DNA of 42,530 nucleotides from Bacilli bacterium (GCA_024695405.1 JAILIF010000046.1:1-42530); one strand, 5' to 3'; positions 5,450 through 40,638 are shown, numbered from the stretch's first letter. Notes: generated by a model not told the origin, from the sequence alone. A program made the numbers and translations.

Positions 5450-6559
5450 TTATCTTTTAATTCCTAGTTTATCTAGCAATTTGAACGCTTCAATAATTGT
5501 GTCATCCATATCTAGATATTTATATAAACCCAGTCTACCACCTAAATATAAGTTGCCTTGTTTATTAGCTAGTTCCACATATTTAACGTACAATTCATTA
5601 TTTCTTTGATTGTTAACTGGATAGTATGGCTCTCCACCTCTTTGGTAAGTGGATGAATATTCTTTAGAAATTAATGTTTTGTCACCGTATTGTTTTAAGA
5701 AGTGACAGTGTTCAATAATTCTAGTAAATTTAGTGTCTCCATCAGTGTAGTTAATAACTGCTTTTGGTTGGAATTTTTCCATATTTAACCATTCATTTTC
5801 AAATCTAATTGAACGATATTCTAAATCACCTAATTCGTAGTTAAATAATGCGTCTACTTGGCCAGTGTAAATAATATTATCTGCGATAGAATTGTAATAT
5901 TCTTTATCTTTTAGATAATCTACATCTAATTTAACTTCTATTCCTTCTAATAACTTTTCAATAATTCTTGTATAACCATGTTCAGGCATACCTTGATATT
6001 GATCATTAAAATAATTGTTATCATAAGTTAATCTAAAAGGTAAACGAGAGATGATAAATGGAGGGAGTTCTGTACATTTTCTACCCCATTGCTTTTCTGT
6101 ATAACTTTTTACTAATAATTCGTAAATAGTTTTGCCCACTAAAGAAATAGCTTTTTCTTCTAAATTTTTAGGGTCGGTAATTCCTGCTTCGGCTTTTTCT
6201 TTTTCGATGATTTTTACTACTTCATCAGGATCTTTAGTACCGAATACTTTTTCAAATGTATACATATTGAAAGGAAGAGAATAAATCTCACCTTTATAGT
6301 TAGCATCTACACTATGGTTATATGGAATGAAATGGTCTAAAGAATTAACAAAATCCCATACTTCTTTTTCAGTTGTATGGAAGATATGTGCACCATAAAC
6401 ATGGATATCTATTCCATTTTCATTCTTAGTGTAAATATTTCCTGCTATATGATCTCTTTTATCAATAACAAGAACTTTCTTTCCATCCTTTTTTAAATAG
6501 TACGCAACAGTCGCACCAAAAAGACCAGCGCCTACAATTAAATAGTCGTATTGTTTCAT
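5450..6559 (-). CDS. glf: UDP-galactopyranose mutase
   Basis: The 369-residue flavoenzyme converts UDP-galactopyranose to UDP-galactofuranose, a precursor of surface glycans. The N-terminus shows the FAD-binding GxGxxG fold at residues 10-15 (VGAGLFGATVAYYL) followed by the ribose-binding acidic end (VLVIDKRDHIAGNIYT). Length and the YGAHIFHT, KQWGRKCTELPP and GGEPYYPV motifs are typical of bacterial Glf. It starts two bases after the stop of the PIG-L gene and is the last gene of the leftward operon. Galactofuranosyl transferases are not in the window, unless the GT2 gene at 27746 is one, which I cannot tell. Confidence 0.93.
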   Translation of the reverse strand: MKQYDYLIVGAGLFGATVAYYLKKDGKKVLVIDKRDHIAGNIYTKNENGIDIHVYGAHIFHTTEKEVWDFVNSLDHFIPYNHSVDANYKGEIYSLPFNMYTFEKVFGTKDPDEVVKIIEKEKAEAGITDPKNLEEKAISLVGKTIYELLVKSYTEKQWGRKCTELPPFIISRLPFRLTYDNNYFNDQYQGMPEHGYTRIIEKLLEGIEVKLDVDYLKDKEYYNSIADNIIYTGQVDALFNYELGDLEYRSIRFENEWLNMEKFQPKAVINYTDGDTKFTRIIEHCHFLKQYGDKTLISKEYSSTYQRGGEPYYPVNNQRNNELYVKYVELANKQGNLYLGGRLGLYKYLDMDDTIIEAFKLLDKLGIKR

Positions 6560-17458: not shown

Positions 17459-18829
17459 ATGCTAAATAACATTTCTGAAATATCAGCCCTATGGCAAAAA
17501 GCACTTTTAAAAATAGAAGAAAGACTAGATGATCGTAACATTTATGAATCATTCTTTTCTGACACATATATTTATGAGATTAGAAACGACACTATTGTTA
17601 TTGTTGTTAACTCAGCTGTTGCAGTTGCGTTATTCAATAATAAATATATAGATTTAATAAGTGATATTATCAGTGATATTACTGAAAGTAATTTTAAATT
17701 AGAATTTGTCCAACAAAGTGATATTGCGAATAAAAAAGAAAAAGAAGCAAGCACTCCAAAAGCACCTGCATATTTTAAAGATTCCATTCTTAATCCAAAC
17801 TTAACTTTTGATTCCTTTGTTGTTGGTGATTTTAATAGAGAAGCAAGTCAAGCTTCTTTAGTTATTGCGTCTAATCCAGGCCAAATGTTTAATCCACTAT
17901 TCATTTACAGTAGTTCTGGATTAGGAAAAACTCATTTATTACACGCAATCGGTAACTATATTTCTAAAATTTCTAGACCAGGAAGCAAGATTTTGTATAT
18001 TTCCGCGAATGACTTTGTGGAAGAATATGTAAAATTTGCTAAAGGTGAAAAAGAATCTGAAAGTATTAAAGATTTTGTATGTACTTTTGATGTTTTACTT
18101 TTAGATGATATCCAATTCATGGCGGATAAAGTAAAAACACAAGAAGTTTTCTTTACTATCTTTAATAAAATGCGCGACGCTGGAAAACACGTTGTTATTA
18201 CTTCAGATAGACAACCAAATGAATTAAAAGGTATTGAAGAAAGATTAGTAACTAGATTCTCACAAGGATTATCTGTTCAAATTAGAGAACCTGATCAAAG
18301 TACTTGTGTAGAAATCTTAAAAAGAAAGATTGAATCAAACGGGCTTGATATCAACATTTTTGATGAAAACGTATTATATTTCTTTGCCGAAAAGTTCTCA
18401 AGCAATGTTAGAGAATTAGAAGGAGCTTTTAATAGATTAATTTTCTATTCAATCCAAATGCAAAAGTCTTCAAAAATCACCATGGATGTCGCAGTAGAAG
18501 CTGTTAGTAACTTAATTGGTGCAAAAGGTGCAATTACTCAGCTTAACGAGTCAAAAATTATCAATATTGTCGCAGATTATTATAACTTATCTCCTTCTCA
18601 AATCACAGGTAAGATAAGAACAGGTCAAATAGCCTTAGCAAGACATGTCGCAATGTATTTAATAAGAATAAATCTTGATGTTCCTCTTAAGAGAATCGGC
18701 GATATGTTTGGCGGTAAAGACCACACCACTGTTATGAACGCAATTCAAAAAGTGGAAAAAGGGTTAACAACTGATGAGGGTTTAAAAGCTGCTGTAGATG
18801 AACTTACAAAGCGTATTAAGCCACAATAA
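17459..18829 (+). CDS. dnaA: Chromosomal replication initiator DnaA
   Basis: The 456-residue AAA+ initiator binds DnaA boxes and opens oriC. Domain I spans about 1-90. The ATPase has Walker A SSGLGKTHLLHAIG, Walker B VLLLDDIQFM and the sensor II region NVRELEGAFNRL. The C-terminal DNA-binding domain carries the DnaA signature (VPLKRIGDMFGGKDHTTVMNAI). There is no Shine-Dalgarno sequence before the ATG. The -10 box ends six bases before it, so the mRNA may be leaderless. A second DnaA-box group follows the gene. Confidence 0.97.
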   Translation: MLNNISEISALWQKALLKIEERLDDRNIYESFFSDTYIYEIRNDTIVIVVNSAVAVALFNNKYIDLISDIISDITESNFKLEFVQQSDIANKKEKEASTPKAPAYFKDSILNPNLTFDSFVVGDFNREASQASLVIASNPGQMFNPLFIYSSSGLGKTHLLHAIGNYISKISRPGSKILYISANDFVEEYVKFAKGEKESESIKDFVCTFDVLLLDDIQFMADKVKTQEVFFTIFNKMRDAGKHVVITSDRQPNELKGIEERLVTRFSQGLSVQIREPDQSTCVEILKRKIESNGLDINIFDENVLYFFAEKFSSNVRELEGAFNRLIFYSIQMQKSSKITMDVAVEAVSNLIGAKGAITQLNESKIINIVADYYNLSPSQITGKIRTGQIALARHVAMYLIRINLDVPLKRIGDMFGGKDHTTVMNAIQKVEKGLTTDEGLKAAVDELTKRIKPQ

Positions 18830-18908
18830 GTTTTATGTAATAAAAAAGAGTATTAAAATACACTACAAAATGATAACATATGATAGTTGAGCATTTTATT
18901 AAAAAGAA

Positions 18909-18926
18909 TTATCCACATAATCCACA
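18909..18926 (+). other. oriC part 2: tandem DnaA boxes between dnaA and dnaN
   Basis: TTATCCACA (18909-18917) is followed directly by TAATCCACA (18918-18926). With the cluster upstream of dnaA this gives a bipartite origin like that of Bacillus subtilis. Confidence 0.75.
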
Positions 18927-18978
18927 CGCCTAATTATTATTGTTAATATATTTAAACAAAAAGAAAGGAATAAATTCT

Positions 18979-20097
18979 ATGAGATTTACAATCGTTAGAG
19001 ATGAATTAGTTAAAAGTGTTAATGTAGCTTTCAGAGCAATCTCCAGTAAAGTTTCTTATCCAGTGTTAGAAAATTTAAAAATGGATCTTACTGATGATGG
19101 TTTATCAATTATTGGTAGTAACTTTGAAATCAGCATTAAAACTTTAATTCCATATGTTGACGGAGATAGAGAAATTATCCGTAATTACAAAAAAGGTTCT
19201 GCTTTAGTTAAGGGTAAATTATTTGCAGATATCATTAGATCAATGGATGATGATGAAATTACATTTGATGTTATTGATAACAATGCATCTATTACTGATA
19301 ATCATTCAGAATATAGGCTTAACTGTATTAGACCTGAAGAATATCCAGATTTGGACTTAGAAGCTATTGGAACTGAATTAGTTCTCCCTAAAGAAGTATT
19401 CCACTCTATTTGTGAACAAACAGCATTCGCAGCTTCTACTAAAGAACAACGTCCAGTATTAACTGCTTTAAATTTAGAAGCAGAAAATGGAGTGCTCACT
19501 GCTACTGCTACTGACTCAGCTAGAATGGCTAGAAAAACAATTAACATTCCACAAGATATCAACTTTGTCGCTAATGTTCCAGCTAAGATGATGGTTGAAG
19601 TAGATCACTTAATGGAAAATCTTCCTGATGTAAGTATTTCTTTCTCGGATAAAAAAGCTTTATTTAAATTAGGTAAAACTGTTGTTGCTACTAGATTAAT
19701 TGCTGGTGATTATCCAAACACTAAGAATATCGTTCCAAAACTTACTAACTATGCTTTAGAAGTTAACGGTGCAGATTTGTTAAAAGCAATTGCAAGAGCT
19801 AACTTACTCTCAATGGATAGAGAAAACGTTGTTGACTTAGCAATGAGTGATGAAGGTGTTTCAATTTCCGCTAAGAGTTCACAAGTTGGTTCTGCTGTTG
19901 AAAAGATTGATAATTACAAATTCGAAGGCGCACAACTTAAAGTTTCATTCAACTCTGAATTTGTATCTTCCGCAATTAGAGCTTTAAATGCTGAAGATGT
20001 CACTATTGCTTTCGTTGGTGAAATGAAGCCATTTGTTATCAAAAACACTTCTGATGACTCAATTATTCAAGTAGTTACACCTGTTCGTACATACTAA
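18979..20097 (+). CDS. dnaN: DNA polymerase III beta subunit (sliding clamp)
   Basis: The 372-residue clamp encircles DNA and tethers polymerase III. I set the start at 18979 (MRFTIVRDELVKSV) because AAAGGA stands nine bases upstream and family members begin at this point; an in-frame ATG at 18940 would add 13 unrelated residues. The three repeated clamp domains are recognisable, with motifs such as EEYPDLDLE, TDSARMARK, AGDYPNTKNIVP and the C-terminal VTPVRTY. It is separated from dnaA by the second DnaA-box site. Confidence 0.96.
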   Translation: MRFTIVRDELVKSVNVAFRAISSKVSYPVLENLKMDLTDDGLSIIGSNFEISIKTLIPYVDGDREIIRNYKKGSALVKGKLFADIIRSMDDDEITFDVIDNNASITDNHSEYRLNCIRPEEYPDLDLEAIGTELVLPKEVFHSICEQTAFAASTKEQRPVLTALNLEAENGVLTATATDSARMARKTINIPQDINFVANVPAKMMVEVDHLMENLPDVSISFSDKKALFKLGKTVVATRLIAGDYPNTKNIVPKLTNYALEVNGADLLKAIARANLLSMDRENVVDLAMSDEGVSISAKSSQVGSAVEKIDNYKFEGAQLKVSFNSEFVSSAIRALNAEDVTIAFVGEMKPFVIKNTSDDSIIQVVTPVRTY

Positions 20098-20126
20098 AAT
20101 AGCCCATTTAAGAGGTATAATATAAG

Positions 20127-20152
20127 AGGGAATAATTTATATTCCCTTTTTT
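20127..20152 (+). terminator. Terminator after dnaN
   Basis: AGGGAATA (20127-20134) pairs with TATTCCCT (20140-20147), followed by a T-run to 20152. A TATAAT at 20165-20170 may be the -10 of a new promoter for yaaA-recF-gyrBA. Confidence 0.85.
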
Positions 20153-20188
20153 ATTTATATGGCGTATAATGTCTAAAAGGAGCGGAAA

Positions 20189-20408
20189 ATGGCCGATAAA
20201 ATAATAGAGTTAAGGGAAGATGAACCTTACATCACTCTTGGTATTGTTCTTAAGTTAGGTAAGATAATATCCACTGGTGGAGAGGCAAAAATATTCCTTA
20301 GTGAAAATGAAGTATTGGTCAATGGAGAAAAAGAAAATAGACGCGGTCGAAAACTATATCCGGAAGATAAAGTTGAAGTCGCAGATAATGTATTTTTGAT
20401 AAAAGACC

Positions 20409-20422
<14 letters not shown>
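20189..20422 (+). CDS. yaaA: S4-domain RNA-binding protein YaaA
   Basis: This 77-residue protein consists of one S4 RNA-binding domain. The segment LGIVLKLGKIISTGGEAKIFL and the following VLVNGEKENRRGRKLYPEDKV are typical of YaaA between dnaN and recF in Bacilli. Its exact role is not settled; a link to the ribosome or tRNA has been suggested for the family. AGGAG precedes the ATG. Its end overlaps recF by 14 nt. Confidence 0.9.
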
Positions 20423-23554
<3,132 letters not shown>

Positions 23555-23572
23555 TAGAAAGGAGACTTGAAT

Positions 23573-26305
23573 ATGTTTTTTGAAGATGAAGAAAACAAAG
23601 CTGAAGCTGAAGTAGCTGAAGACGAAGAAGAAGTTTCTGAAGAAGATGAAAAAGAACTCGAAGCTCTTGAAGACGGTATTGTTGCTGGTCTTGAAGATGT
23701 AGATACAGTTCCACTTGTTCAACAATCCTTCCTTGATTACGCAATGAGTGTTATCGTTGCTCGTGCTATCCCTGATGTTAGAGATGGTATGAAACCAGTT
23801 CATAGACGTATTGTTTATGCTATGCACGAAACAGGAAATACTCCTGATAAACCATTTAAGAAATGTGCTCGTATCGTTGGTGACGTTATGGGTAAATATC
23901 ACCCTCATGGTGACTCTGCAATTTATGGTGCGTTAGTTAGATTAGCTCAACCATTCGCAATGAGATACACTCTCGTTGAAGGTCATGGTAACTTCGGTTC
24001 TATCGATGGTGATGAACCTGCAGCTTACCGTTATACTGAAGCAAGAATGGCAAAGATGGCACTTGAAATGGTACGTGATATTAACTGCAATACAGTTGAT
24101 TTCATGGATAACTATGATGGTGTTGACCAAGAGCCTACTGTATTACCATCAAGATTTCCTAACTTATTAGTTAATGGTTCTTCTGGTATCGCTGTTGGTA
24201 TGGCTACAAATATTCCACCACACAATTTAAATGAAGTTGTTGATGGAGTTATTGCTCTTTCTCATAACAGAGACATCACTACTGATGAATTAATGGAATA
24301 TATCAAAGGTCCTGACTTTCCTACTGGCGCTATGATTTTAGGTAGAGGTGGAATTAAAGAAGCTTATGAAACAGGTTCTGGTTCTATCGCTATTAGAAGT
24401 AAATGTCATATTGAAGAAAGAGGCGCTAACGGTGATTTAAAACGTATTGTTGTTGATGAAGTTCCTTATGGAGTTAATAAAGCAACAATGTGTGAAAATA
24501 TTGCTGAATTAGCAAGAGATAAAGTAATTGATGGAATTACAGATATTCGTGATGAATCTAATAAAGATGGTATCCGTGTTGTTATCGAAGTTAGAAGAGA
24601 TTGCATTCCTGAAGTTATCTTAAATCAACTTTTCAAAATGACTTCATTACAAGTAAGTTTTGGTATTATTAACCTCTGCTTAGTTGATAATGGACCAAAG
24701 GTTTGTTCTTTAAAACAAATGTTAGAAAATTACTTAGATTTCCAAATCGAAGTTGTTGAAAGAAGAACAAAATTCTTATTAGAAAAAGATGAAGCAAGAG
24801 ATCATATCGTTATCGGTTTGATTAAATGTCACGACAATATTGATGATATCGTCGATATTATTAAAGACAGTGCTACTCCAGAAGAAGCTACTAAGAGATT
24901 GATGGAAAAATATGGATTCACAGAAATCCAAGTTAACGCAATCTTAGCTATGAACTTACGTAGATTAACTGGTATCGAAAATGAAAAACTTGAAGCTGAA
25001 AGAGCTCAATTAGAAAAGAATATTGCTGAATACAATAGAATCCTTTCTTCTAAAGAAAACGAGACAGAAGTTGTTAGAAAAGAATTAGAAGAAATTAAAG
25101 AAAAATTTGGTGATGAAAGAAAAACAGAAATCACTAATGTTGCAGCAAGTATTGATGATGAAGACTTAATTCCACAAGAAGATATCGTTGTTACATTATC
25201 TAAGGGTGGATATGTTAAGAGAGTTTCCGCTGATACTTTCCGTGCTCAACATAGAGGTGGTAGAGGCATTAAAGGTGCGTCATTATATGAAAATGATGTT
25301 GTTCAATTAATGACTTACACAAAGACTCACACTGACTTATTATTCTTTACAGATTTAGGTAAGGTTTATAGAATCCGTGGTTATGAAATTCCTGAATATC
25401 AAAGAACAGGTAAAGGCGTTCCAGTTATTAACTTAATCAACATTGAAAAAGGCGAAAATGTTAAAGCTATTATCGCTGTTGATGATTACTTACCATATCG
25501 TTTCTTATTGTTCTTCACTAGAGACGGTATTGTTAAGAGAACTCCTATTGCAGAATACGAATCTATCAGACAAAACGGTAAGATTGCTATCGCATTAAGA
25601 GAAGGCGACACTATTATCGATGTTAAAGAAGTTCAAGAAGTAATGAAGACTAGAGACACTGAAATTCTTCCTGAAAAGACTTATTATTCACTTAATAAAG
25701 AAGAAGGAACATACGCTCCTATCGCTTCTCCAAACGCTGAAGAATTAGCAAATTACTACGAAGAAATGTACGTTGGTATTGCTGCAGATAACGGTAAGAT
25801 GGTTAACTTCCCAGTTATTGAAGTAAGACCTATGGGACGTACTGCAAGCGGTGTTAAAGGTATTGAATTATGTGAAGGCGCTAAAGTTGTTGGCGTTACA
25901 GTTGCATATGAAGGTGACCATGTCTTAGTTGTTACAGACAAAGGCTTTGGTAAGATATCTTCAATTGATGAATACCGTAAGACAAAACGTGGTGCTAAAG
26001 GTGTTTCAACACTTAAATCTTCACCTAAGATTGGTAAGATTGTTGATGTTAAATCAGTCTTTGGTGATGAAGATATCATGGCTATCACAAACGCTGGTAT
26101 CATTATCAGAACTCACTTAAATGAATTCAGAATCACTGGCAGAAATACTCAAGGTGTTAGATTGATTAATCTTGAAGATAAACAAAAAGTTTCTTCTATC
26201 ACTATCGTTCCTTATGAAGAAGACGCTCCAGAAGTAGAGCAAATTATTGAAGATGGTGAAGAAGAAAACGTTGAAGAAAACGTTATTGAAAAAGTAGAAG
26301 AATAG
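23573..26305 (+). CDS. gyrA: DNA gyrase subunit A with acidic N-terminal extension
   Basis: The 910-residue subunit cuts and rejoins DNA. I chose the ATG at 23573, nine bases after AAAGGAG; an in-frame TTG at 23567 lies too close to that site. The conserved region begins at [20 protein letters not shown]. The active-site Tyr lies in [10 protein letters not shown]. The C-terminal wrapping domain has the GyrA box QHRGGRG, which marks it as gyrase and not topoisomerase IV. The first 40 or so residues and the last 30 are strongly acidic, which lengthens it beyond typical family members. Confidence 0.95.
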
Positions 26306-31394: not shown

Positions 31395-31426
31395 AAAAAC
31401 GCGTCTTAAATGGCGCGTTTTCTATT
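31391..31426. terminator. Bidirectional terminator between GH3 and the signalling island
   Basis: GAAAA(A)CGCG (from 31394) pairs with CGCGTTTTC (31414-31422), with A- and T-rich flanks on both sides. It serves the rightward GH3 gene and the leftward 1329-residue gene. Confidence 0.85.
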
Positions 31427-34400
31427 ATTTTCCATCTTTTACGAAGACGAATGAACCTGCTACTCTAGCTTTCTCAAGTTCTTTGTTCTTATACATAGCT
31501 TCATCAGCACGTTTAATAACATCATCGATAGTCATATCTGTTTCTGGATTATATATAGCTACACCCATAGCAATATGTGCCCTACCTTTTTCATATTCCT
31601 TAATTGCAGAAGCACGTCTATTCATCTTGTCTAATTGATCCATTAATTCTTTATAATTTGTTAAATCTTGGCCTTCAAGAATGACTGAGAATTCATCACC
31701 ACCGATACGATAAACAGGTGAATGTGTAAATACTTCACAGAGCATTCTACAACAGTTTTTAATGTACATATCACCAATCTCGTGGCCAAATTTATCGTTA
31801 GCAACTTTTAAGTTGTTAATATCGGCACCAACGATACCAAATTCATAGTATGGATTTGTCTTAAGAATAGAAGAAATTTGTTCAATTCTTTCTGCGTGTG
31901 CAGTTCTATTCTTAACGTTGGTAAGAACGTCTGTATTTGCTTTTTGAATTGTAGAAGTAAGTTTTCTTTCCATTCTATTTGAATGTTCTTTCATAGAAAG
32001 AATTAAAAGTCTTGCCAATTCTTCAATGATTAAAGGTTTACTCATACAACCATTCGCGCCTTCTTCTAAACATTGTTTTGCTAAGTCACTTTCAATTTCG
32101 CCAGTGACAGCAACGATTGGAACACGAATATCCTTATCTTCTTCCCAATCACGAATAGCTTTTGTTAAATCAACGCCGTTCATTTCTGGCATGACTAAAT
32201 CAACTAAAATAATATCAAATGGTTTGAATTTTTTGATTGCTTCAAGAGCGGTTGCACCACTGGAGAAATCACTAACAATAGCACCTTCATCTTCAAGAGT
32301 CTCTTTAGTCATAAAACGAGATAAAGCATTATCATCAACAATTAAAATTCTAGTGCCTTCAAGAGTTTTTACTCTAGGTTTATTAGTTGGTTCTTTTTCA
32401 ACAATCTTCGCAGCTGATTTTGCTAATCCAAGAGTTTGATTATTAGACTCTAATTGTGTAACATCTTGCACGAATGCATAGGAAATATCACCAAATGATT
32501 CACTATGAGAAATATATCCAAAGTGATCAAGAATCTTCTCTTCTCCATTCTTACAAACAATACGATATTTAGTGTGCTCTAAGTGTTTGCTAGATTTTAC
32601 GACTTGCTTATTAATAATATTAACAGTCTTTTCAAAATCATCAGCGTGGACAATACCTTTAAATGAATTATTTACGTATTTTATAAAGTCTTCACGATTA
32701 GCACAGTTAAAATATTTAACCATTATATTATTAAAATATAATAGTGAGCCTTGTGCGTCATTTCTATACATAAAGAAACCAGTAGGCATTTGTTCAGAAA
32801 TTTGAGTTAAAACAGGGAATGTTTGATTATTGATTACTGTATTAAATTTATATGTTTCTATTGCTGATTTATTAATTGAAGCAGCAGAAACAATTTTTCC
32901 ACTATTCATGTATTCACTCATGTTACTGACGCATTTTTTAAGCGAATCAAAGAATATAGGATTAAATGAACCACATTCACCGTTAATAATCATTGCAACT
33001 GCGGAATCAACCTCATATGCATCACGATAAGTTCTTTTTGAAGTTAAAGCGTGGAAAGCATCAATTAATCCAACAATTTGAGCTGATAAAGGAATATCGT
33101 TGCCTGCTAATCCATAAGGATATCCTTCACCATTCCATCTTTCATGGTGGTATTTACATACATCAGTTAAGATTTTGAAATATGCACTATCGTAGACATT
33201 TTTGAGCTTATTTAATAATTTTTCACTATGTGAAGCATGGGTTTTAATGACTTCAAATTCTTCTTTTGTAAGTTTACCTTGTTTATAGATGATTTCTTCA
33301 GGGATAGCTAATTTACCAATATCGTGAATAACAGAGGCTTCGCTTACTTCAGCTACAAAATCGTTTGTTAAACCTAATTCAGGGTAATCTTGCATTAATT
33401 GAGTACCAAAAATATAAGTCAAATATTTGAATTGATATGAGTGGTTAAAACCTTTATCTTTACGTGTTTCGACTATGTCGCCAATCAAATCAATAATGCT
33501 TTCATTAACATTTTCGATGATATTGTTTTTATCGTAGATTTCTCTATCCTTAGAACGGATTTCTTCTTCTAATTTATCAATGTTTTGATTAGCTGCTTCG
33601 TATTCTGCATTAATGTTTGTGATAACCACTAATGCCATATTGTTATCACCTTTTGTAGCACGTAATAAATAGTGATATGGCATTCCTTTAGAGATATCAC
33701 GATAATAAACAGTTAAAGTTCCTTTGTCTTCTAGTGATAATCTTAAATTGACTAAATCTGTTGCTAAAAGCATGTTATCAATATCTTCAAAATAAACATC
33801 TCTTTTAACATATGCTTGAATGTATGCTTCGAAATCAGGGATGAAACTATTTCTTCTTGCAAAAACTGTATCCTGCTTGCAAATATCAAAAGTATGGTCT
33901 TTTAAGTTTACCAAGAATGCTGCGTCATAATTTTCCAATAACAAGTTAGACATCTTATTTTGTTTATTCTCAAAATATGGAATTGTTTCACCTTGGGAAA
34001 TACTAGAAGAATTATTATTAACTAAGCGAATGCCACAAACTAATCCAGCGATACTTCTGTCATCTTCGCGATCAGGGAAAAAGACTACTTCATAGTCATA
34101 AACAACGCCAAAATATCTAATCTTAAATGTTGTCTTAAAAGTGCCACTTTTTTTCAAACTGTTTAAGATATTTTGTCTGCTGTCGCCTTTTGTGAAACGT
34201 TCACGGTCAACACTAGTTAAAACTTTGTTAATTAAGACATTAAAACGGTCAGTAAAATTGTTACTGTGACCCCAGTTTTCAGTCAATTTATTTAAGAATT
34301 CAGATGTTTTGAAATCCTCGACATAATCATCATCAGGAGTTAGTCCTAAATTGACATAACCAACATATTCGTAATCTTGTGCAATTAAATTTAAATAGAA

Positions 34401-35414
34401 ATTACGTGTTTTATTACGATTTCTTAAAGTTTTAAATGAAGTAATATTTTGTAAAATGCCTTCAAAACGTGTAATGCCGTTTTCAAGTCCAGTACGTTTT
34501 CCTGAACAACGATAATATATAGTTCTCATTGATGGAGCAGACCAGCGATATTCAAATTCGACATATTGACCTAATAACATTTTATGAATCGCTTCAGTTA
34601 CAACTGAAATATCGTCTTCTTCAACGTGATTAAGAATAAACTTATAAACATATTGTGGAGATGCATCATCACTTACACCAGCTTTACGTAATATTGTTTT
34701 TGGAAAATATAATGCAGGCTCACGATCTTCACTAATTTCTGCATACCAAGTAGTAATGTTATAAAGTTTCAAAGCTTTATCAGAAATACTTTCAAAAATA
34801 GAAGCTTCATTAGATAAAGAATATTTTGCTTCATCAACTGCGTCTAATTTCTTAAATAATTGGATATAAACATCATCTGAGACATATTGTTCACCCATTT
34901 TTAAATATTCCAAAGTGAGGTCACAACAGTTTTCAATAAATCTAGTTAATACATCAAATTCGTCTTTGTTTTTTATCTTTCCTAAATCTACTTCATCCTT
35001 AAAAAAGATATTAATTTTAGTAGTTAAAAAGAGGTTTGATATTACTTCTTTACAACTGTTTGGCAAATTATTGAAAGACCTAATTGCAGTATTAAAAAAT
35101 GATAATTCTTCTTTAGAACGAGTGCCAATTGCTTTAATAAAATGAATAATTTCTAATAAGCATTCATTTAAATCTTTTGTATTTTTAAATGTTGGGAAAT
35201 CAGACAAAATCCCATTTAATAATTGCGAATATAACGCTTCTTTAGAACCGAAACGTTGAACAATTAAACCATTAGTAACTTTAGCGATTTTTGAAATATC
35301 AGTAAAAGTTGCAGCGTTATATTCAATAGTAGAAAAAACATTCAAGCTAGCGCTTAGAATTGCTTTTGATGTTAATTCTTTTTGTAGAGCTCTCTTATTT
35401 ACAACTTCTTTCAT
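31425..35414 (-). CDS. TetR-HTH / PAS / HD-GYP / PAS / REC / GGDEF multidomain protein
   Basis: This continuous 1329-residue frame joins domains that are rarely combined. Residues 1-66 resemble a TetR-type helix-turn-helix (FTDISKIAKVTNGLIVQRFG, SKEALYSQLL). Residues about 210-625 contain PAS-like sensor folds and are followed by a coiled coil (about 630-670). HD-GYP follows, with HDIGK (His697-Asp698) and HHERWNGEGYP. A PAS domain lies at about 860-990. The receiver has VDDN and the phosphoacceptor Asp1072 in VDLVMPEMNG. The GGDEF domain ends the protein with an intact RIGGDEF (1238-1242). The c-di-GMP inhibitory RxxD site is absent (FTHS). It could therefore make and degrade c-di-GMP under phosphorelay control. 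There is no membrane segment. The upstream promoter is strong, but the ATG lacks a clear Shine-Dalgarno sequence. Confidence 0.9.
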   Translation of the reverse strand: MKEVVNKRALQKELTSKAILSASLNVFSTIEYNAATFTDISKIAKVTNGLIVQRFGSKEALYSQLLNGILSDFPTFKNTKDLNECLLEIIHFIKAIGTRSKEELSFFNTAIRSFNNLPNSCKEVISNLFLTTKINIFFKDEVDLGKIKNKDEFDVLTRFIENCCDLTLEYLKMGEQYVSDDVYIQLFKKLDAVDEAKYSLSNEASIFESISDKALKLYNITTWYAEISEDREPALYFPKTILRKAGVSDDASPQYVYKFILNHVEEDDISVVTEAIHKMLLGQYVEFEYRWSAPSMRTIYYRCSGKRTGLENGITRFEGILQNITSFKTLRNRNKTRNFYLNLIAQDYEYVGYVNLGLTPDDDYVEDFKTSEFLNKLTENWGHSNNFTDRFNVLINKVLTSVDRERFTKGDSRQNILNSLKKSGTFKTTFKIRYFGVVYDYEVVFFPDREDDRSIAGLVCGIRLVNNNSSSISQGETIPYFENKQNKMSNLLLENYDAAFLVNLKDHTFDICKQDTVFARRNSFIPDFEAYIQAYVKRDVYFEDIDNMLLATDLVNLRLSLEDKGTLTVYYRDISKGMPYHYLLRATKGDNNMALVVITNINAEYEAANQNIDKLEEEIRSKDREIYDKNNIIENVNESIIDLIGDIVETRKDKGFNHSYQFKYLTYIFGTQLMQDYPELGLTNDFVAEVSEASVIHDIGKLAIPEEIIYKQGKLTKEEFEVIKTHASHSEKLLNKLKNVYDSAYFKILTDVCKYHHERWNGEGYPYGLAGNDIPLSAQIVGLIDAFHALTSKRTYRDAYEVDSAVAMIINGECGSFNPIFFDSLKKCVSNMSEYMNSGKIVSAASINKSAIETYKFNTVINNQTFPVLTQISEQMPTGFFMYRNDAQGSLLYFNNIMVKYFNCANREDFIKYVNNSFKGIVHADDFEKTVNIINKQVVKSSKHLEHTKYRIVCKNGEEKILDHFGYISHSESFGDISYAFVQDVTQLESNNQTLGLAKSAAKIVEKEPTNKPRVKTLEGTRILIVDDNALSRFMTKETLEDEGAIVSDFSSGATALEAIKKFKPFDIILVDLVMPEMNGVDLTKAIRDWEEDKDIRVPIVAVTGEIESDLAKQCLEEGANGCMSKPLIIEELARLLILSMKEHSNRMERKLTSTIQKANTDVLTNVKNRTAHAERIEQISSILKTNPYYEFGIVGADINNLKVANDKFGHEIGDMYIKNCCRMLCEVFTHSPVYRIGGDEFSVILEGQDLTNYKELMDQLDKMNRRASAIKEYEKGRAHIAMGVAIYNPETDMTIDDVIKRADEAMYKNKELEKARVAGSFVFVKDGK

Positions 35415-35427
35415 TTCAATAAATCAT

Positions 35428-35440
35428 CGTTTAGTAAACG
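35428..35440 (-). promoter_or_regulatory. 13-bp palindromic operator candidate
   Basis: CGTTTAGTAAACG is a perfect odd-centred palindrome placed at the predicted transcription start of the TetR-GGDEF gene. TetR-type proteins usually bind such sites near their own promoters. A related direct copy CATTTAGTA lies 15 bases away at 35443-35451 and overlaps the -10 box. Confidence 0.55.
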
Positions 35441-35447
35441 TGCATTT

Positions 35448-35476
35448 AGTATAAGTTATGAGATATATAGTTGCAA
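35448..35476 (-). promoter_or_regulatory. SigA-type promoter of the TetR-GGDEF gene
   Basis: On the minus strand TTGCAA (35476-35471) is separated by exactly 17 bases from TATACT (35453-35448). Transcription would start inside or next to the 13-bp palindrome. Confidence 0.7.
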
Positions 35477-35486
35477 GAGGAAAATT

Positions 35487-35518
35487 AAAAAAAGTGATAT
35501 AGTTTCCTACACCACTTT
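35487..35518 (-). terminator. Strong terminator after the HPt gene
   Basis: On the minus strand a 12-bp stem (two G-T pairs) with a GAAA loop spans 35518-35491 and is followed by seven T residues (complement of 35487-35493). It separates the HPt unit from the TetR-GGDEF promoter. Confidence 0.88.
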
Positions 35519-35535
35519 CTTAAATATGTATTTTA

Positions 35536-35883
35536 TTAATCTAAAAGCGCAATTGCTTGAATAATGTTGTTATATTTTTCTCTTACATCTGCTAATGCGC
35601 TAGCGTAGTCTTCACCATTATAATTGCGGAATATTTCAGTTAAAACAACACTTGAATTGTATAAATCAGTTAAAGCTAAATTTGCAGATAAACCTTTTAA
35701 TGTATGAACAGCTCTAAATGCAGTTGGGATATCATTATTAGCAATTGCAGCATTCAATTCATTAAATGTTTCATCCATAGCAAACATACGGATATATTTC
35801 TTAGCGCGTTCTTCAGTTCCAACGCGTCCTAAAAATTCATCGTACGAACCATTTATTTGTGTATAGAATTCTTTAACTGTCAT
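35536..35883 (-). CDS. Histidine phosphotransfer (HPt) domain protein
   Basis: The 115-residue all-helical protein has the HPt signature AFRAVHTLKGLSANLAL, which places the phosphorylatable histidine at His60. HPt proteins pass phosphate between receiver domains and have no enzymatic activity of their own. It lies 52 bases after the Tyr-box hybrid kinase and before the receiver-containing TetR-GGDEF gene. It is therefore the natural link between the two hybrid kinases and the output receiver. The terminator behind it shows that the kinase and HPt genes probably form one unit. Confidence 0.88.
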   Translation of the reverse strand: MTVKEFYTQINGSYDEFLGRVGTEERAKKYIRMFAMDETFNELNAAIANNDIPTAFRAVHTLKGLSANLALTDLYNSSVVLTEIFRNYNGEDYASALADVREKYNNIIQAIALLD

Positions 35884-35934: not shown

Positions 35935-38148
35935 TTACTTTTTAATATTTTTAGAAAGAATTTCAATAAGATGATCTATTTGAACAGGTTTTGGGAGAAA
36001 ACCATTCATACCTGATTCAACCATTAAAATCCTATCTTCTTTAAATTTACTTCCAGTCATTCCAATAACAGGAATTTTAGAAGCTTTATTGTTTAATTTT
36101 CTGATTGCTTTTGTTGTTTCAAAACCGTTCATTTCAGGCATAGAAATATCGATTAAAACCGCTAAATAATCGGAAGAATTTGGTTTTGTTAATTCTTCTA
36201 TTGCTTGTTGACCATTTTCTACACTTTCAACAATAAAACCAAATTCTTTTAAAGAATTCATAGATATTTCACTACTAATTGGATTATCTTCAACTAATAG
36301 TAATTTAGTACCGATAAAGTCTTTTTCTCTGTATATATTAGTTTCTTCTTGTTCTACATGTTCATCAGCGTATTGCAATGGTAAAGTAATTACTACTTCT
36401 GTTCCTTTATTTGGGATACTGGAAATAGAAATTTCTCCATGCATCATATCAATAATGTTTTTGGTAATTACCATACCTAATCCACTACCGGTATTTGCAG
36501 GATTAATAAAGCTATTCTTTTTGATAAATGGATTATAAATTGTTTCGAGTGTTTCTTTATTCATTCCAACGCCTGTATCTTTAATTCTAAATTCATATTT
36601 TCCTGTTCCAGTTCCTAAATCCCCTAACTGTTTTACAGAGAAAACAATTGTGCCATCTTCTGGTGTGAATTTTTCTGCATTAGAAAGAATATTTAAAATA
36701 GCCTGTTTAAGACGGAATTTATCACAGATTATGTTTTTATTAATGATGTCGACATTCGTTTCAAAATTGATTTGTTTTGATTGAATATTGGCATGTACAA
36801 TCTCATTTAATGAACGAATTATCTCTCTTAAGTCTTCATTCCTTTCCTCAATAGAGATTCTTCCTGATTCAATCTTACTCATATCTAAAATATCATTAAT
36901 AACAGCGGATAACTGATTTGATGTTTCTTTTATCTTTGTAAGATAACTAGATACTTGATCTAAATTATCCATATGTGAATTAGCTAGAGATGAATATGTC
37001 AAAATTGCATTCATTGGTGTGCGAATTGTATATGACATATTGTTGAAGAACAAATTCTTTGCTTTGTTAGCGCCTTCTGCCATTGTTAAAGCGTCTTTTA
37101 ACTGTAATCTTAGTTCTTGTCTATCACTACCATATGAGTCTAATTTACTAAAGCCTAAAGAAATAACCGCAGGAGTTCCATCTTGATTTCTACATAAAAC
37201 ATAATTAGTAACACTAACCCAGTTTCCACCTACACGATCGCTAGATTTATAGAAAAATACACGTTTATTTTCAATCATTAATGATTGTTTTATTAATTCA
37301 ATATTTGATAAATTTTCAAAAATCTCTTTAGTGTCTCCTTGATGAACTTTTGAAAAAGATTTCATTGCATTAGTAAAAGAGGCAATTTGACCTGTTCCGC
37401 CAGATTCTTTGTAAAAAGGTGAACTTTTAATTGTGGTAATTTCGTCTCGGTCTAAATCAGCGACGAATAAAGCAAAATAATCTTCCTCTTTCAAAGTAGA
37501 TAGTTTTTCCTCAAGAATTTTTGTGCCTCTAGTAGAGATTGTTACTAAGAATAATTCAGGTGAAAAATTAGAGAAAGTTATTTGTGCCCATTCACATTTT
37601 TCATTCTCAATTTCACGGTAATATAGTGTGTAAAATTCTTGCTTTGATAATTTTTGAAGGATAGTTTTATAATCAAATTCTTCCTTGAGGAAATCACGTT
37701 CTTTAAAGTAGACATTATTTTCTAAATATTTAAGTATTTCAGTCAAAAAACTATTGTCTTTAGTTTTTCCTTTAAACACTAAATCAATGTCTCTTATTTG
37801 TTTATAAGAATCACTTTTAAAATCGACTAAAAATGCACTTTTACATTCCTTTAAGAGATTTTCAGTTACTTCGAAAACGTGTTTATTAATTTCGTATTTG
37901 TTATCTAGTAACATCCAAATGCAGTAACCAACAAAAAGAACTAATTCAAAAAGCGCTAAACAAAGTAATAAATTCTTAGCTGTTTCAATGTTTTCACCTG
38001 ATTCACTGTTTTTATTAAAAATTAGAAAGGTTGAAATAATGGTTGCACCGGCAAATAAAACAATCATAATGACTGTTATAAAAGTTCTTATTGCAGCGTG
38101 TTTGCTTCTAAAGAAATCGGTTTTAGAAAAATTATTTTTCTCCGCCAT
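35935..38148 (-). CDS. Membrane hybrid histidine kinase-like protein with Tyr in place of the H-box His
   Basis: The 737-residue protein has two membrane segments (about 23-44 and 59-81) with only a short loop between them. Two PAS-like regions (about 90-340) follow, then a HisKA-like domain, HATPase and a receiver. The H-box reads NNMSYTIRTPMNAI, so the phosphoacceptor His is Tyr373 (codon TAT at 37030-37032). The ATPase N box NILSNAEKFT, G1 DTGVGM and G2 GSGLGM look intact. The receiver is complete, with EDN, Asp667 in LIDISMPEMNG and the C-terminal KP. It cannot autophosphorylate in the normal way. It could act on partner kinases or accept phosphate from HPt. GGAG precedes the start. Confidence 0.88.
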   Translation of the reverse strand: MAEKNNFSKTDFFRSKHAAIRTFITVIMIVLFAGATIISTFLIFNKNSESGENIETAKNLLLCLALFELVLFVGYCIWMLLDNKYEINKHVFEVTENLLKECKSAFLVDFKSDSYKQIRDIDLVFKGKTKDNSFLTEILKYLENNVYFKERDFLKEEFDYKTILQKLSKQEFYTLYYREIENEKCEWAQITFSNFSPELFLVTISTRGTKILEEKLSTLKEEDYFALFVADLDRDEITTIKSSPFYKESGGTGQIASFTNAMKSFSKVHQGDTKEIFENLSNIELIKQSLMIENKRVFFYKSSDRVGGNWVSVTNYVLCRNQDGTPAVISLGFSKLDSYGSDRQELRLQLKDALTMAEGANKAKNLFFNNMSYTIRTPMNAILTYSSLANSHMDNLDQVSSYLTKIKETSNQLSAVINDILDMSKIESGRISIEERNEDLREIIRSLNEIVHANIQSKQINFETNVDIINKNIICDKFRLKQAILNILSNAEKFTPEDGTIVFSVKQLGDLGTGTGKYEFRIKDTGVGMNKETLETIYNPFIKKNSFINPANTGSGLGMVITKNIIDMMHGEISISSIPNKGTEVVITLPLQYADEHVEQEETNIYREKDFIGTKLLLVEDNPISSEISMNSLKEFGFIVESVENGQQAIEELTKPNSSDYLAVLIDISMPEMNGFETTKAIRKLNNKASKIPVIGMTGSKFKEDRILMVESGMNGFLPKPVQIDHLIEILSKNIKK

Positions 38149-38223: not shown

Positions 38224-38246
38224 AAAAAAAGTCTCGATTGGACTTT
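38224..38246 (-). terminator. Terminator overlapping the stop of the FIST kinase
   Basis: On the minus strand AAAGTC (38246-38241) pairs with GACTTT (38233-38228), followed by a T-run (complement of 38224-38230). The first arm includes bases of the stop codon. Confidence 0.7.
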
Positions 38247-40638
38247 ATTTCATATGTTTTAATAATGCTTCTTTTAATTCATCAATGTTTATTGGTTTTG
38301 CAACGTGGTCATTCATTCCTGCTGCTAGAGAAGCTACTTTGTCTTCTTCAAAGGCATTAGCAGAAACTGCGATGATAATTATATTTTCGTTAGGATACAT
38401 TTCTCTAATTGCTTTCGTTGCTTCATAACCATTCATGATTGGCATTTGAATATCCATCAAAATTGCATCATAGTAGTCAGGGCCCTTTTCTTTCAACATA
38501 TCAACAGCGATTTTTCCGTTTTCAGCGGTCTCTGCTACTATTCCTTCTTCTTGAACAATATCTAATGCAATTTCACGGTTTAAAACATTGTCTTCGACAA
38601 TGAGCAATTTTTTTCCTTTTAATTCGACAAATTTTGAATCTTTATCGTCATGTGATTCATTATTGTCGAGTTTTTTAATGAACTTAAATGGGAATTTTAT
38701 TGTAAAAGTTGAACCGACTCCTTGTTTACTGACACAAGAAATACTTCCACCCATTAATTGAGTTAATTTCAAAGCAAGAGGTAATCCCAAACCAGTTCCT
38801 TGAATTCCACTTATTGTTGAAGTCTCTTCACGAGAGAATTCTTCAAACATATGTTTTTGGAATTCTTCACTCATTCCAATCCCAGTGTCTGCAACTTTAT
38901 AAGTGTAAATATGAATGTCTTCTTGATCACTTTCGCTTTCTTCTAAAGTAATATCTACACGACCACCATTATTTGTGTACTTAATTGCGTTAGTTATGAT
39001 ATTAATTAATACTCTTTGTACAAAGACAGTGTCCATCTCAACAAATGAATGCTTCAAATTGATTACTTTATAGCTTACATTAATGTCTTTTGAAGCAGCT
39101 AAATTAGCCATAATTGGTTCTATATTTTCTAGGATTGTTTTAATATTGACTTCGTCATATTTTACTTTTACTTTTCCACTTTCAATACGACTCATATCTA
39201 AAATGTCGTTAATAATTGATAAGAGTATTTCACTAGAATTTTGAACTTTTTCAATAGCTTCTAATGCTTTTTTTGGATCATTTTCAATATCTTTTAAAGC
39301 TATATTTGTGAAACCAATAATTGCATTCATTGGAGTACGAATATCATGTGACATATTGAATAAGAATCTAGTTTTTGCTTTATTAGCTTCTTCTGCTAAT
39401 TCTAGAGCCTCTTGTTGTTCTTGAGTGACTTTCTTAGTAAAGAAAGCAAGACGAGAGACCATTGATTTATCCACTTCTTCAGAAGTGACAACAACAGGGA
39501 TAGCATCTTTTCCAGCAAATTCACGAACAGAAATTACGCATAATGTTTCATTACAAATTCTGATTTTGTTATTAATTTTTACGTAAACACCTCTTGAATA
39601 ATATCCAGATAATGGAGCAATTTGGTTCAAAATTCTAGTTTCTTTTCCAACTTCTTCATTACCCCAGAAAGTTCTTCTTGATGCGCAAGAATATGCTTTA
39701 ATAGTTTCCGGCCTAAACTCTGAAATATTAAGTGCTTTTTGATGAATTTGAGATAGAACAGCGTTTCTATCTCCATAGGAGATTCTTACTTCTGTTCCTT
39801 GAGGAATATTTACATACATTTCCATTGTTCCATCTTCATTAATTTTTGATGGAATTCTTAAATATTCAATACCATCTTCATAGACAATAAGTGGAAAAAC
39901 AAACGTTTCTTGCAGGCCAGCTAAATTGCCTAAATACTGTTGCAATAGTTTTAAAGGATTAACGTTATCAATTGTCTTAACACATCTGCCTTCAACTTCA
40001 GTAATTTTCATTAATTTTCCCACAGCTTCGAAGCCAAGAACAAAATCTGAAGAAAATGACAAATCGCTTCCTGAATACACTATTGCAATCATTGCATCAG
40101 TGGTTTTTGGATGGCCTTTTGCAAAAATAGAAGCACTTTCGATTGAATTAGAATATGATGCAGCAATGCCTCCGAAGATATAAATATCTTCTCCTAAAGG
40201 AGGAATCTCATTATCTAACTTTAAATATTCGGAATATGAATATGTAGGTAGTAATTCTACAGCCTTTAAATCTTTCTTATTTATACAAATATTCCACAGA
40301 CTATTCAATGTCGGAGTTTTTGTACCTTTTTCAATCCAAATAAGATCAATTTTAGATCTTTTACTCTCAAAAATTGAGCAAGTAATGTGAATTCCTAAAG
40401 AAAATTCGCCAGCTGCAATATTGCCAGATGCTTCGTTCCCATAGTACATTGCATTAGGAAAAATTTCTTCTATTTTGTCAATGCAAGTTGGTAGTTTTCC
40501 TTTCACATTATCTGACCATGTAATATGAAAAATTATTTCCCTTTCTTCAAGAACATTATCTTCAAGATAATTTCTGAGTTGGAGCAATTTATTTATAAAA
40601 TCAGTGCTATTCTTATAAGCAATTTGGATTTGTTGCAT
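38245..40638 (-). CDS. FIST-domain hybrid histidine kinase/response regulator
   Basis: The 797-residue protein has no membrane segment. Its N-terminal about 380 residues match the FIST sensory module, with FIST-N (YYGNEASGNIAAGEF) and FIST-C (VGKLMKITEVEGRCVKTIDN, ISYGDRNAVL). FIST is thought to sense small intracellular ligands, possibly amino acids. HisKA follows with an intact H-box FNMSHDIRTPMNAIIGF (His431). HATPase has NAIKYT, DTGIGM and GTGLGL. The receiver has EDN, Asp729 in LMDIQMPIMNG and KP. It is the only kinase of the island with a complete H-box, so it is the likely phosphate source. AGAGG precedes the ATG. An IS30 element lies 126 bp upstream. Confidence 0.9.
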   Translation of the reverse strand: MQQIQIAYKNSTDFINKLLQLRNYLEDNVLEEREIIFHITWSDNVKGKLPTCIDKIEEIFPNAMYYGNEASGNIAAGEFSLGIHITCSIFESKRSKIDLIWIEKGTKTPTLNSLWNICINKKDLKAVELLPTYSYSEYLKLDNEIPPLGEDIYIFGGIAASYSNSIESASIFAKGHPKTTDAMIAIVYSGSDLSFSSDFVLGFEAVGKLMKITEVEGRCVKTIDNVNPLKLLQQYLGNLAGLQETFVFPLIVYEDGIEYLRIPSKINEDGTMEMYVNIPQGTEVRISYGDRNAVLSQIHQKALNISEFRPETIKAYSCASRRTFWGNEEVGKETRILNQIAPLSGYYSRGVYVKINNKIRICNETLCVISVREFAGKDAIPVVVTSEEVDKSMVSRLAFFTKKVTQEQQEALELAEEANKAKTRFLFNMSHDIRTPMNAIIGFTNIALKDIENDPKKALEAIEKVQNSSEILLSIINDILDMSRIESGKVKVKYDEVNIKTILENIEPIMANLAASKDINVSYKVINLKHSFVEMDTVFVQRVLINIITNAIKYTNNGGRVDITLEESESDQEDIHIYTYKVADTGIGMSEEFQKHMFEEFSREETSTISGIQGTGLGLPLALKLTQLMGGSISCVSKQGVGSTFTIKFPFKFIKKLDNNESHDDKDSKFVELKGKKLLIVEDNVLNREIALDIVQEEGIVAETAENGKIAVDMLKEKGPDYYDAILMDIQMPIMNGYEATKAIREMYPNENIIIIAVSANAFEEDKVASLAAGMNDHVAKPINIDELKEALLKHMK

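Follow-up and report, generated by a model that had tools for sequence, protein, structure and literature searches.

The trigger phosphodiesterase PdeL (YahA) of Escherichia coli, a helix-turn-helix (HTH)-EAL protein, recognizes an imperfect palindrome at its promoter, autoregulates and is sensitive to cyclic di-GMP (c-di-GMP) (PMC5052742). VieA of the Vibrio cholerae VieSAB system is a receiver (REC)-EAL-HTH protein whose receiver is fed by a phosphorelay of histidine kinase, REC and histidine phosphotransfer (Hpt) domains; according to the paper, direct DNA binding by VieA has not been demonstrated (PMC4352251). Here we analyzed a stretch of 42,530 nt from a Bacilli bacterium (GCA_024695405.1, JAILIF010000046.1:1-42530), referred to as a whole as the window, in which positions 31425-35414 of the minus strand encode a 1329-residue protein with the domain order TetR-PASx3-HD-GYP-PAS-REC-GGDEF. 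Like PdeL, this protein combines an HTH and a c-di-GMP enzyme in one chain and has a palindrome at its own promoter, its DNA binding and enzyme activity being predicted from sequence. In contrast, PdeL has a LuxR-type HTH and an EAL domain, lacks a cyclase, a receiver, PAS domains and a phosphorelay, and activates its own promoter, whereas the 1329-residue protein is predicted to repress its own. As in VieA, a receiver predicted to be fed by a phosphorelay, a putative c-di-GMP phosphodiesterase domain and an HTH are combined in a single polypeptide, but VieA has the order REC-EAL-HTH, other domain classes and no cyclase.

The C-terminal part also has known counterparts. The REC-GGDEF end aligns over 301 residues with Caulobacter PleD (REC-REC-GGDEF), although PleD has neither a DNA-binding head nor an HD-GYP domain and carries an RxxD inhibitory site that the 1329-residue protein lacks. 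PAS-HD-GYP-REC-GGDEF proteins of Mogibacterium and Candidatus Crickella (L018 and L019) share the C-terminal order HD-GYP-REC-GGDEF, with 44-46% identity over the best-matched segments, but the complete one (L018, 832 residues) has no TetR head, and L019 is a partial reading at a contig edge. The original prediction, made from the sequence of the window alone, had noted that c-di-GMP enzymes normally act through separate effectors; PdeL and VieA are nevertheless precedents for the union of DNA binding and a c-di-GMP enzyme. No TetR fusion to GGDEF or HD-GYP was described in the literature searched, and the combination of a TetR head, a cyclase and HD-GYP in one chain appears to be new.

Architecture of the 1329-residue protein

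The gene is a single frame that starts at an ATG and is not interrupted by a stop codon. Pfam matches were judged against the curated gathering cut-offs, and same-genus genomes from yak omasum (L017) and horse faeces (L016) served as sources of orthologues. The features of the protein, all on the minus strand, are as follows.

31425-35414, minus: TetR-PASx3-HD-GYP-PAS-REC-GGDEF protein (open frame, Pfam, orthologues; identity 83% to L017 and 52-56% to L016)
34824-35414, minus: complete TetR fold, residues 1-197 (Pfam, AlphaFold2 model, PDB match to 3pas)
35226-35372, minus: HTH, TetR_N, residues 15-63 (Pfam)
33609-34778, minus: about three PAS-like alpha/beta domains, residues 213-602 (AlphaFold2 secondary structure, low confidence)
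33459-33608, minus: linker helix, coiled-coil, residues 603-652 (AlphaFold2 helix 602-652)
32925-33458, minus: predicted HD-GYP phosphodiesterase domain, residues 653-830 (HD_5, 102.5 bits, 679-810)
32445-32807, minus: PAS domain, residues 870-990 (PAS_3 above cut-off, 909-971)
32004-32354, minus: REC domain, residues 1021-1137 (Response_reg, 85.5 bits, 1023-1135)
31467-31949, minus: predicted GGDEF diguanylate cyclase domain without RxxD inhibitory site, residues 1156-1316 (GGDEF, 89.7 bits, 1159-1314)

The original prediction had read one unbroken frame of TetR, PAS, HD-GYP, REC and GGDEF domains with a TetR-like HTH at the N terminus, and had proposed profile searches and an AlphaFold model as checks. 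The frame is open throughout and the Pfam matches all exceed their gathering cut-offs, including TetR_N, HD_5, Response_reg and GGDEF. TetR_N matched residues 19-63 with 29.8 bits (cut-off 24, E 5e-7); it was above the cut-off in all fused relatives (30.0-34.1 bits) and scored 26.3 bits in a 605-residue protein of genome G582, described below. An AlphaFold2 model of residues 1-210 had a mean predicted local distance difference test (pLDDT) of 81.5 and a predicted template modelling score (pTM) of 0.79, with ten helices over residues 2-193. In comparison with TetR regulators by VIA-align, residues 7-194 of this model matched; for 3pas, Z was 15.1 and the root-mean-square deviation 4.1 Å over 185 residues. 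Profile comparison of the head also matched many TetR structures. Because the model matches TetR regulators over residues 7-194, including the all-helical ligand and dimerization core that follows the HTH, the head is a whole TetR protein, more than an HTH alone.

The HTH is among the best conserved parts of the 1329-residue protein. Its recognition region (residues 37-62) shares 96% identity with L017 and 92% with L016 at low nonsynonymous divergence (dN 0.017 and 0.051), and the TetR C-terminal domain is 70% and 36% identical (dN 0.653 against L016). A constrained HTH joined to a drifting core is the pattern expected for a retained DNA-binding surface.

In the output half, the catalytic signatures of GGDEF and REC are intact. 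The cyclase signature and its metal- and guanine-binding residues are present (GGDEF at 1238, ADINNLK at 1197, GHEIGD at 1210), and the RAID of PleD has no counterpart in the alignment. The REC pocket contains the acidic pair, the phospho-acceptor Asp (DLVMPEM at 1072) and the Thr and Lys motifs which, together with a partner kinase and Hpt protein, characterize a phosphorelay response regulator. In the HD-GYP domain, HD at 697, a downstream His and HHERWNGEGYP at 756 make up the signature. The alignment to the HD-GYP structure 4mcw, which begins at residue 679, downstream of the early Glu and His metal ligands, retains HD, H, HH and the first D. The usual DxFDAL reads IDAFHAL, in which the first D is retained and the second is replaced by H, and in L016 the early histidine is an asparagine (MAFFT alignment). 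The protein is predicted to both synthesize and hydrolyze c-di-GMP. Between head and enzymes, AlphaFold2 of residues 1-663 gave three PAS-like units of alpha/beta structure, with a long helix running on to HD-GYP; because pLDDT was 48 in this model, the count of about three is approximate. PAS_3 was above the cut-off at the equivalent place in the relative encoded by L026.

We searched samples at the level of family, order (279 genomes), class (395) and phylum (392), the class and phylum sets overlapping the order set. In the 279 order genomes, full-length matches to a profile of residues 1-640 came from three members of this genus and from G046, a second genus of the same family, which encodes a diverged TetR-PAS-HD-GYP-PAS-GGDEF protein of 1304 residues without REC. 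The class and phylum samples added one fused protein, a 916-residue TetR-PAS-HisKA-REC-GGDEF protein encoded beside a separate kinase-REC in G582, a genome of another family, which also has the 605-residue TetR protein; the remainder of the latter looks PAS-like and has no Pfam match. The full domain order was not found beyond this genus in any of the samples searched, in support of the original prediction, which knew of no standard family with this order. With the G046 and G582 fusions included, the joining of a TetR head to sensory and c-di-GMP output modules recurs at low frequency in gut Bacilli. An assembly chimera was rejected, as the same fusion is present in two independently assembled genomes of the genus, and a mobile element was considered and had no match in plasmids. 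In G582, the two neighbors form a complementary split pair (L047 6488-10691): the kinase-REC keeps its ATPase and has lost its His (NVNYDLKTP), and the 916-residue protein keeps the His (MSHDIRTP) and has no recognizable ATPase; the former may phosphorylate the latter. In G046 (L026 7550-12067), the next gene downstream of the fused gene is rubrerythrin-like and has the same orientation.

The promoter palindrome

Three elements lie between the Hpt gene and the TetR gene.

35488-35521, minus: terminator-like hairpin (scan)
35448-35476, minus: promoter-like TTGCAA-17-TATACT (scan; L017 and L016 retain the -10 box and the 17-nt spacing)
35428-35451, minus: candidate auto-operator, conserved in L017 and L016; TACTAAA-tgcacg-TTTACTA (35432-35451) and, in overlap with it, the perfect palindrome CGTTTACTAAACG (35428-35440)

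From the -10 box onward, TATACTAAATnnACGTTTAsTAAA is retained in L016, in contrast to the bulk of the intergenic sequence. The highest-scoring ungapped local match of this footprint had a score of 15, which none of 500 shuffles reached. The conserved footprint reads TACTAAA-N6-TTTAsTA and overlaps the -10 box, placing a palindrome at the -10 and start region, where an autoregulating TetR protein is predicted to bind. The palindrome at 35428-35440, which the original prediction had named as a site to test for DNA binding, is conserved and lies within a likely auto-operator.

The 605-residue TetR gene of G582 has an exact palindrome, TACTAAA-aatgat-TTTAGTA, over its -10 box and ending 2 bases before the start codon. 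The exact match occurred in 0 of 20,000 shuffles and a match with at most one mismatch in 0.045%; this palindrome was spotted post hoc, with half-site and spacing already fixed by L016. Half-sites, 6-bp spacer and promoter position are identical between the operator pattern of the window and this remote gene, and the two proteins have similar recognition helices (TAGLIGQRYGTKDNL and TNGLIVQRFGSKEAL). The G582 palindrome is independent support and the best evidence that the head may bind DNA and control its own promoter.

Putative phosphorelay neighbors and c-di-GMP readers

The original prediction had recognized the receiver input but had left out the Hpt and FIST-kinase-REC genes, as well as the c-di-GMP riboswitches of the genome. 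The neighbors lie upstream of the TetR gene on the same strand.

35536-35883, minus: Hpt phosphotransfer protein, histidine intact (AVHTLKG; Hpt 38.7 bits; adjacent in L016 and L017)
35935-38148, minus: histidine-kinase-like-REC protein with Tyr for the phospho-acceptor His (MSYTIRTP), ATPase boxes and REC intact (Pfam, motif scan)
38245-40638, minus: FIST sensor-histidine kinase-REC, all boxes intact (FIST, FIST_C, HisKA, HATPase_c, REC; motif scan)

The FIST-kinase-REC, the Hpt protein and the TetR protein are neighbors in all three genus genomes; the Tyr-for-His kinase is the same in L017 and absent from L016. FIST-kinase-REC and Hpt are predicted to complete a His-Asp-His-Asp path whose last acceptor is the REC of the 1329-residue protein, with a direction of transfer that would follow established two-component biochemistry. 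A dnaA-dnaN-recF-gyrB-gyrA cluster lies at 17459-26305, because of which the region is probably close to the replication origin, about 15 kb or less from the TetR gene.

c-di-GMP-I riboswitches numbered 4, 4 and 2 in the three genus genomes, 4 in G582 and 0 in G046, and no PilZ effector was over the cut-off in these five genomes. Those of the window's genome lie near tandem genes for proteins with AWF-type leaders, and the riboswitch-adjacent genes of G000 encode proteins of this kind.

L100 4131-4207 and 10098-10173: c-di-GMP-I riboswitches
L101 1867-1943: c-di-GMP-I riboswitch
L102 176-250: c-di-GMP-I riboswitch

These predicted riboswitches can read the messenger. The AWF-leader gene groups are possible matrix operons of the TasA/SipW kind; a riboswitch pair in G582 is close to a gene for a SipW-like signal peptidase (E 5e-13 by NCBIfam, below cut-off).

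A proposed switch and its alternatives

We consider it fairly probable that the 1329-residue protein acts as the last response regulator in a phosphorelay and at the same time as an autoregulating TetR-type DNA-binding protein. A small ligand at the FIST domain would set the activity of the hybrid kinase (38245-40638), from which phosphate would pass from the kinase His to the kinase REC, to Hpt (35536-35883) and to the REC of the 1329-residue protein. Phosphorylation of REC would alter the homodimer and switch the GGDEF cyclase on, the PAS and HD-GYP domains would govern the opposing hydrolysis of c-di-GMP, and c-di-GMP-I riboswitches at other places in the genome would read the messenger. 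At the same time, the TetR head, which is predicted to bind the operator, would occupy TACTAAA-N6-TTTAGTA across the -10 box and the start and repress its own promoter. Its occupancy would probably be changed along the dimer by ligand, phosphorylation or c-di-GMP state, comparable to the action of c-di-GMP on PdeL. The domains, the gene adjacency and the conserved promoter palindrome are established from the sequences.

Several points weigh against this reading. Coupling of nucleotide turnover to DNA binding, with phosphorylation or c-di-GMP reaching the head, is hypothetical, and the middle of the protein that would transmit it was modelled at low confidence. The operator of the window and L017 is imperfect, with a single mismatch in the right half. 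Because an intrinsic terminator and a separate promoter precede the TetR gene, the kinase genes need not share its regulation. Furthermore, because of the DAFHAL departure and the early His lost in L016, phosphodiesterase activity is uncertain.

Among the alternatives, it is quite possible, if not favored, that two functions lie side by side, the head being a simple autorepressor that may have a ligand of its own and the enzymes acting on the general c-di-GMP pool with no allosteric coupling. The sole well-supported site is the protein's own promoter, the untuned genome-wide excess of the motif described below is only modest, and the riboswitches already serve as c-di-GMP effector. However, three members of the genus retain the fusion, and two further genera have a TetR-PAS head linked to a GGDEF output, an arrangement that would be unnecessary for a small repressor working separately.

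A somewhat less likely reading is that HD-GYP is a c-di-GMP-binding sensor or a weak enzyme, so that the protein is in effect a cyclase only. IDAFHAL in place of DxFDAL and the asparagine at the early histidine in L016 speak for it, but the domain does have HD with the next H, the paired HH, the first D and the GYP signature.

The palindrome could also belong to another genus-specific regulator or be a structural element unrelated to the TetR head, which we regard as unlikely. Similar palindromes of the consensus RCTAAAYGNNCRTTTAGY are found at non-promoter places: within comEC, within a ylqF-like GTPase gene, where a crp-like gene ends, and downstream of tRNA genes. Several copies lie within coding sequence or downstream of tRNA genes. 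On the other hand, half-sites, spacing and promoter position recur at the TetR-PAS gene of another family with a similar recognition helix, and the tuned motif is concentrated in the genus having the protein: RCTAAAYGNNCRTTTAGY had 6, 6 and 5 copies in the three genus genomes, from whose footprint hits the consensus had been built, with 0 for the reversed control, and 0-3 copies, none of them exact, in each of the other 217 family genomes. An untuned motif from the auto-operators alone gave 11, 9 and 6 copies in the three genus genomes against 7, 3 and 6 for the control. Footprint counts at three mismatches were about the control level, and a wider regulon drawn from the exact palindrome CGTTTANTAAACG was rejected, as its count at one mismatch was not in excess of the reversed-pattern control. 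Because RCTAAAYGNNCRTTTAGY was tuned on the same genomes and the untuned excess is small, a regulon beyond the own promoter is suggestive only. A genus-specific 24-bp palindrome, TTCRCTAAAYG-NN-CRTTTAGYGAA, recurs between genomes of the genus at orthologous sites, some of them within comEC or on the downstream side of tRNA-Asp/Phe. In the window's genome, the neighborhood corresponding to that of the G046 gene (L080) has double palindromes beside a rubrerythrin-like gene. The sites are as follows.

L080 2984 and 5663-5698: TTCRCTAAAYG-NN-CRTTTAGYGAA
L081 3370: same palindrome
L083, L086, L089, L092 and L093: same palindrome

It is very unlikely that the head no longer binds DNA and serves the enzymes as a ligand-sensing or dimerization module: its TetR_N score is moderate and TetR cores generally fold as ligand-binding dimers, but the HTH is kept best and the ligand and dimer part least, the opposite of what this predicts, and an operator-like palindrome is conserved in the promoter.

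Beyond the preferred reading of a phosphorelay response regulator that represses its own gene, we tentatively propose a closed-loop single-chain switch, which is possible although rather doubtful. The phosphorelay would set the cyclase/HD-GYP pair, whose state would pass through the dimer to the TetR repressor head, which would control its own gene together with a small set of TTCRCTAAAYG-NN-CRTTTAGYGAA sites specific to the genus, and TetR-PAS heads would be a recurrent DNA-binding module that gut Bacilli have joined to c-di-GMP and histidine-kinase outputs. Because the operator, the phosphorelay partners and the riboswitch readers can be named from sequence, a small number of purified proteins and a single reporter would suffice to test whether turnover and DNA binding are coupled in one chain. 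The setting is anaerobic gut Bacilli, in which c-di-GMP signalling is little studied. If true, the finding would extend the trigger-enzyme idea, in which a single protein acts on c-di-GMP and also binds DNA, from PdeL, where it is known, and VieA, where it is suspected, to the TetR class as well as to a cyclase.

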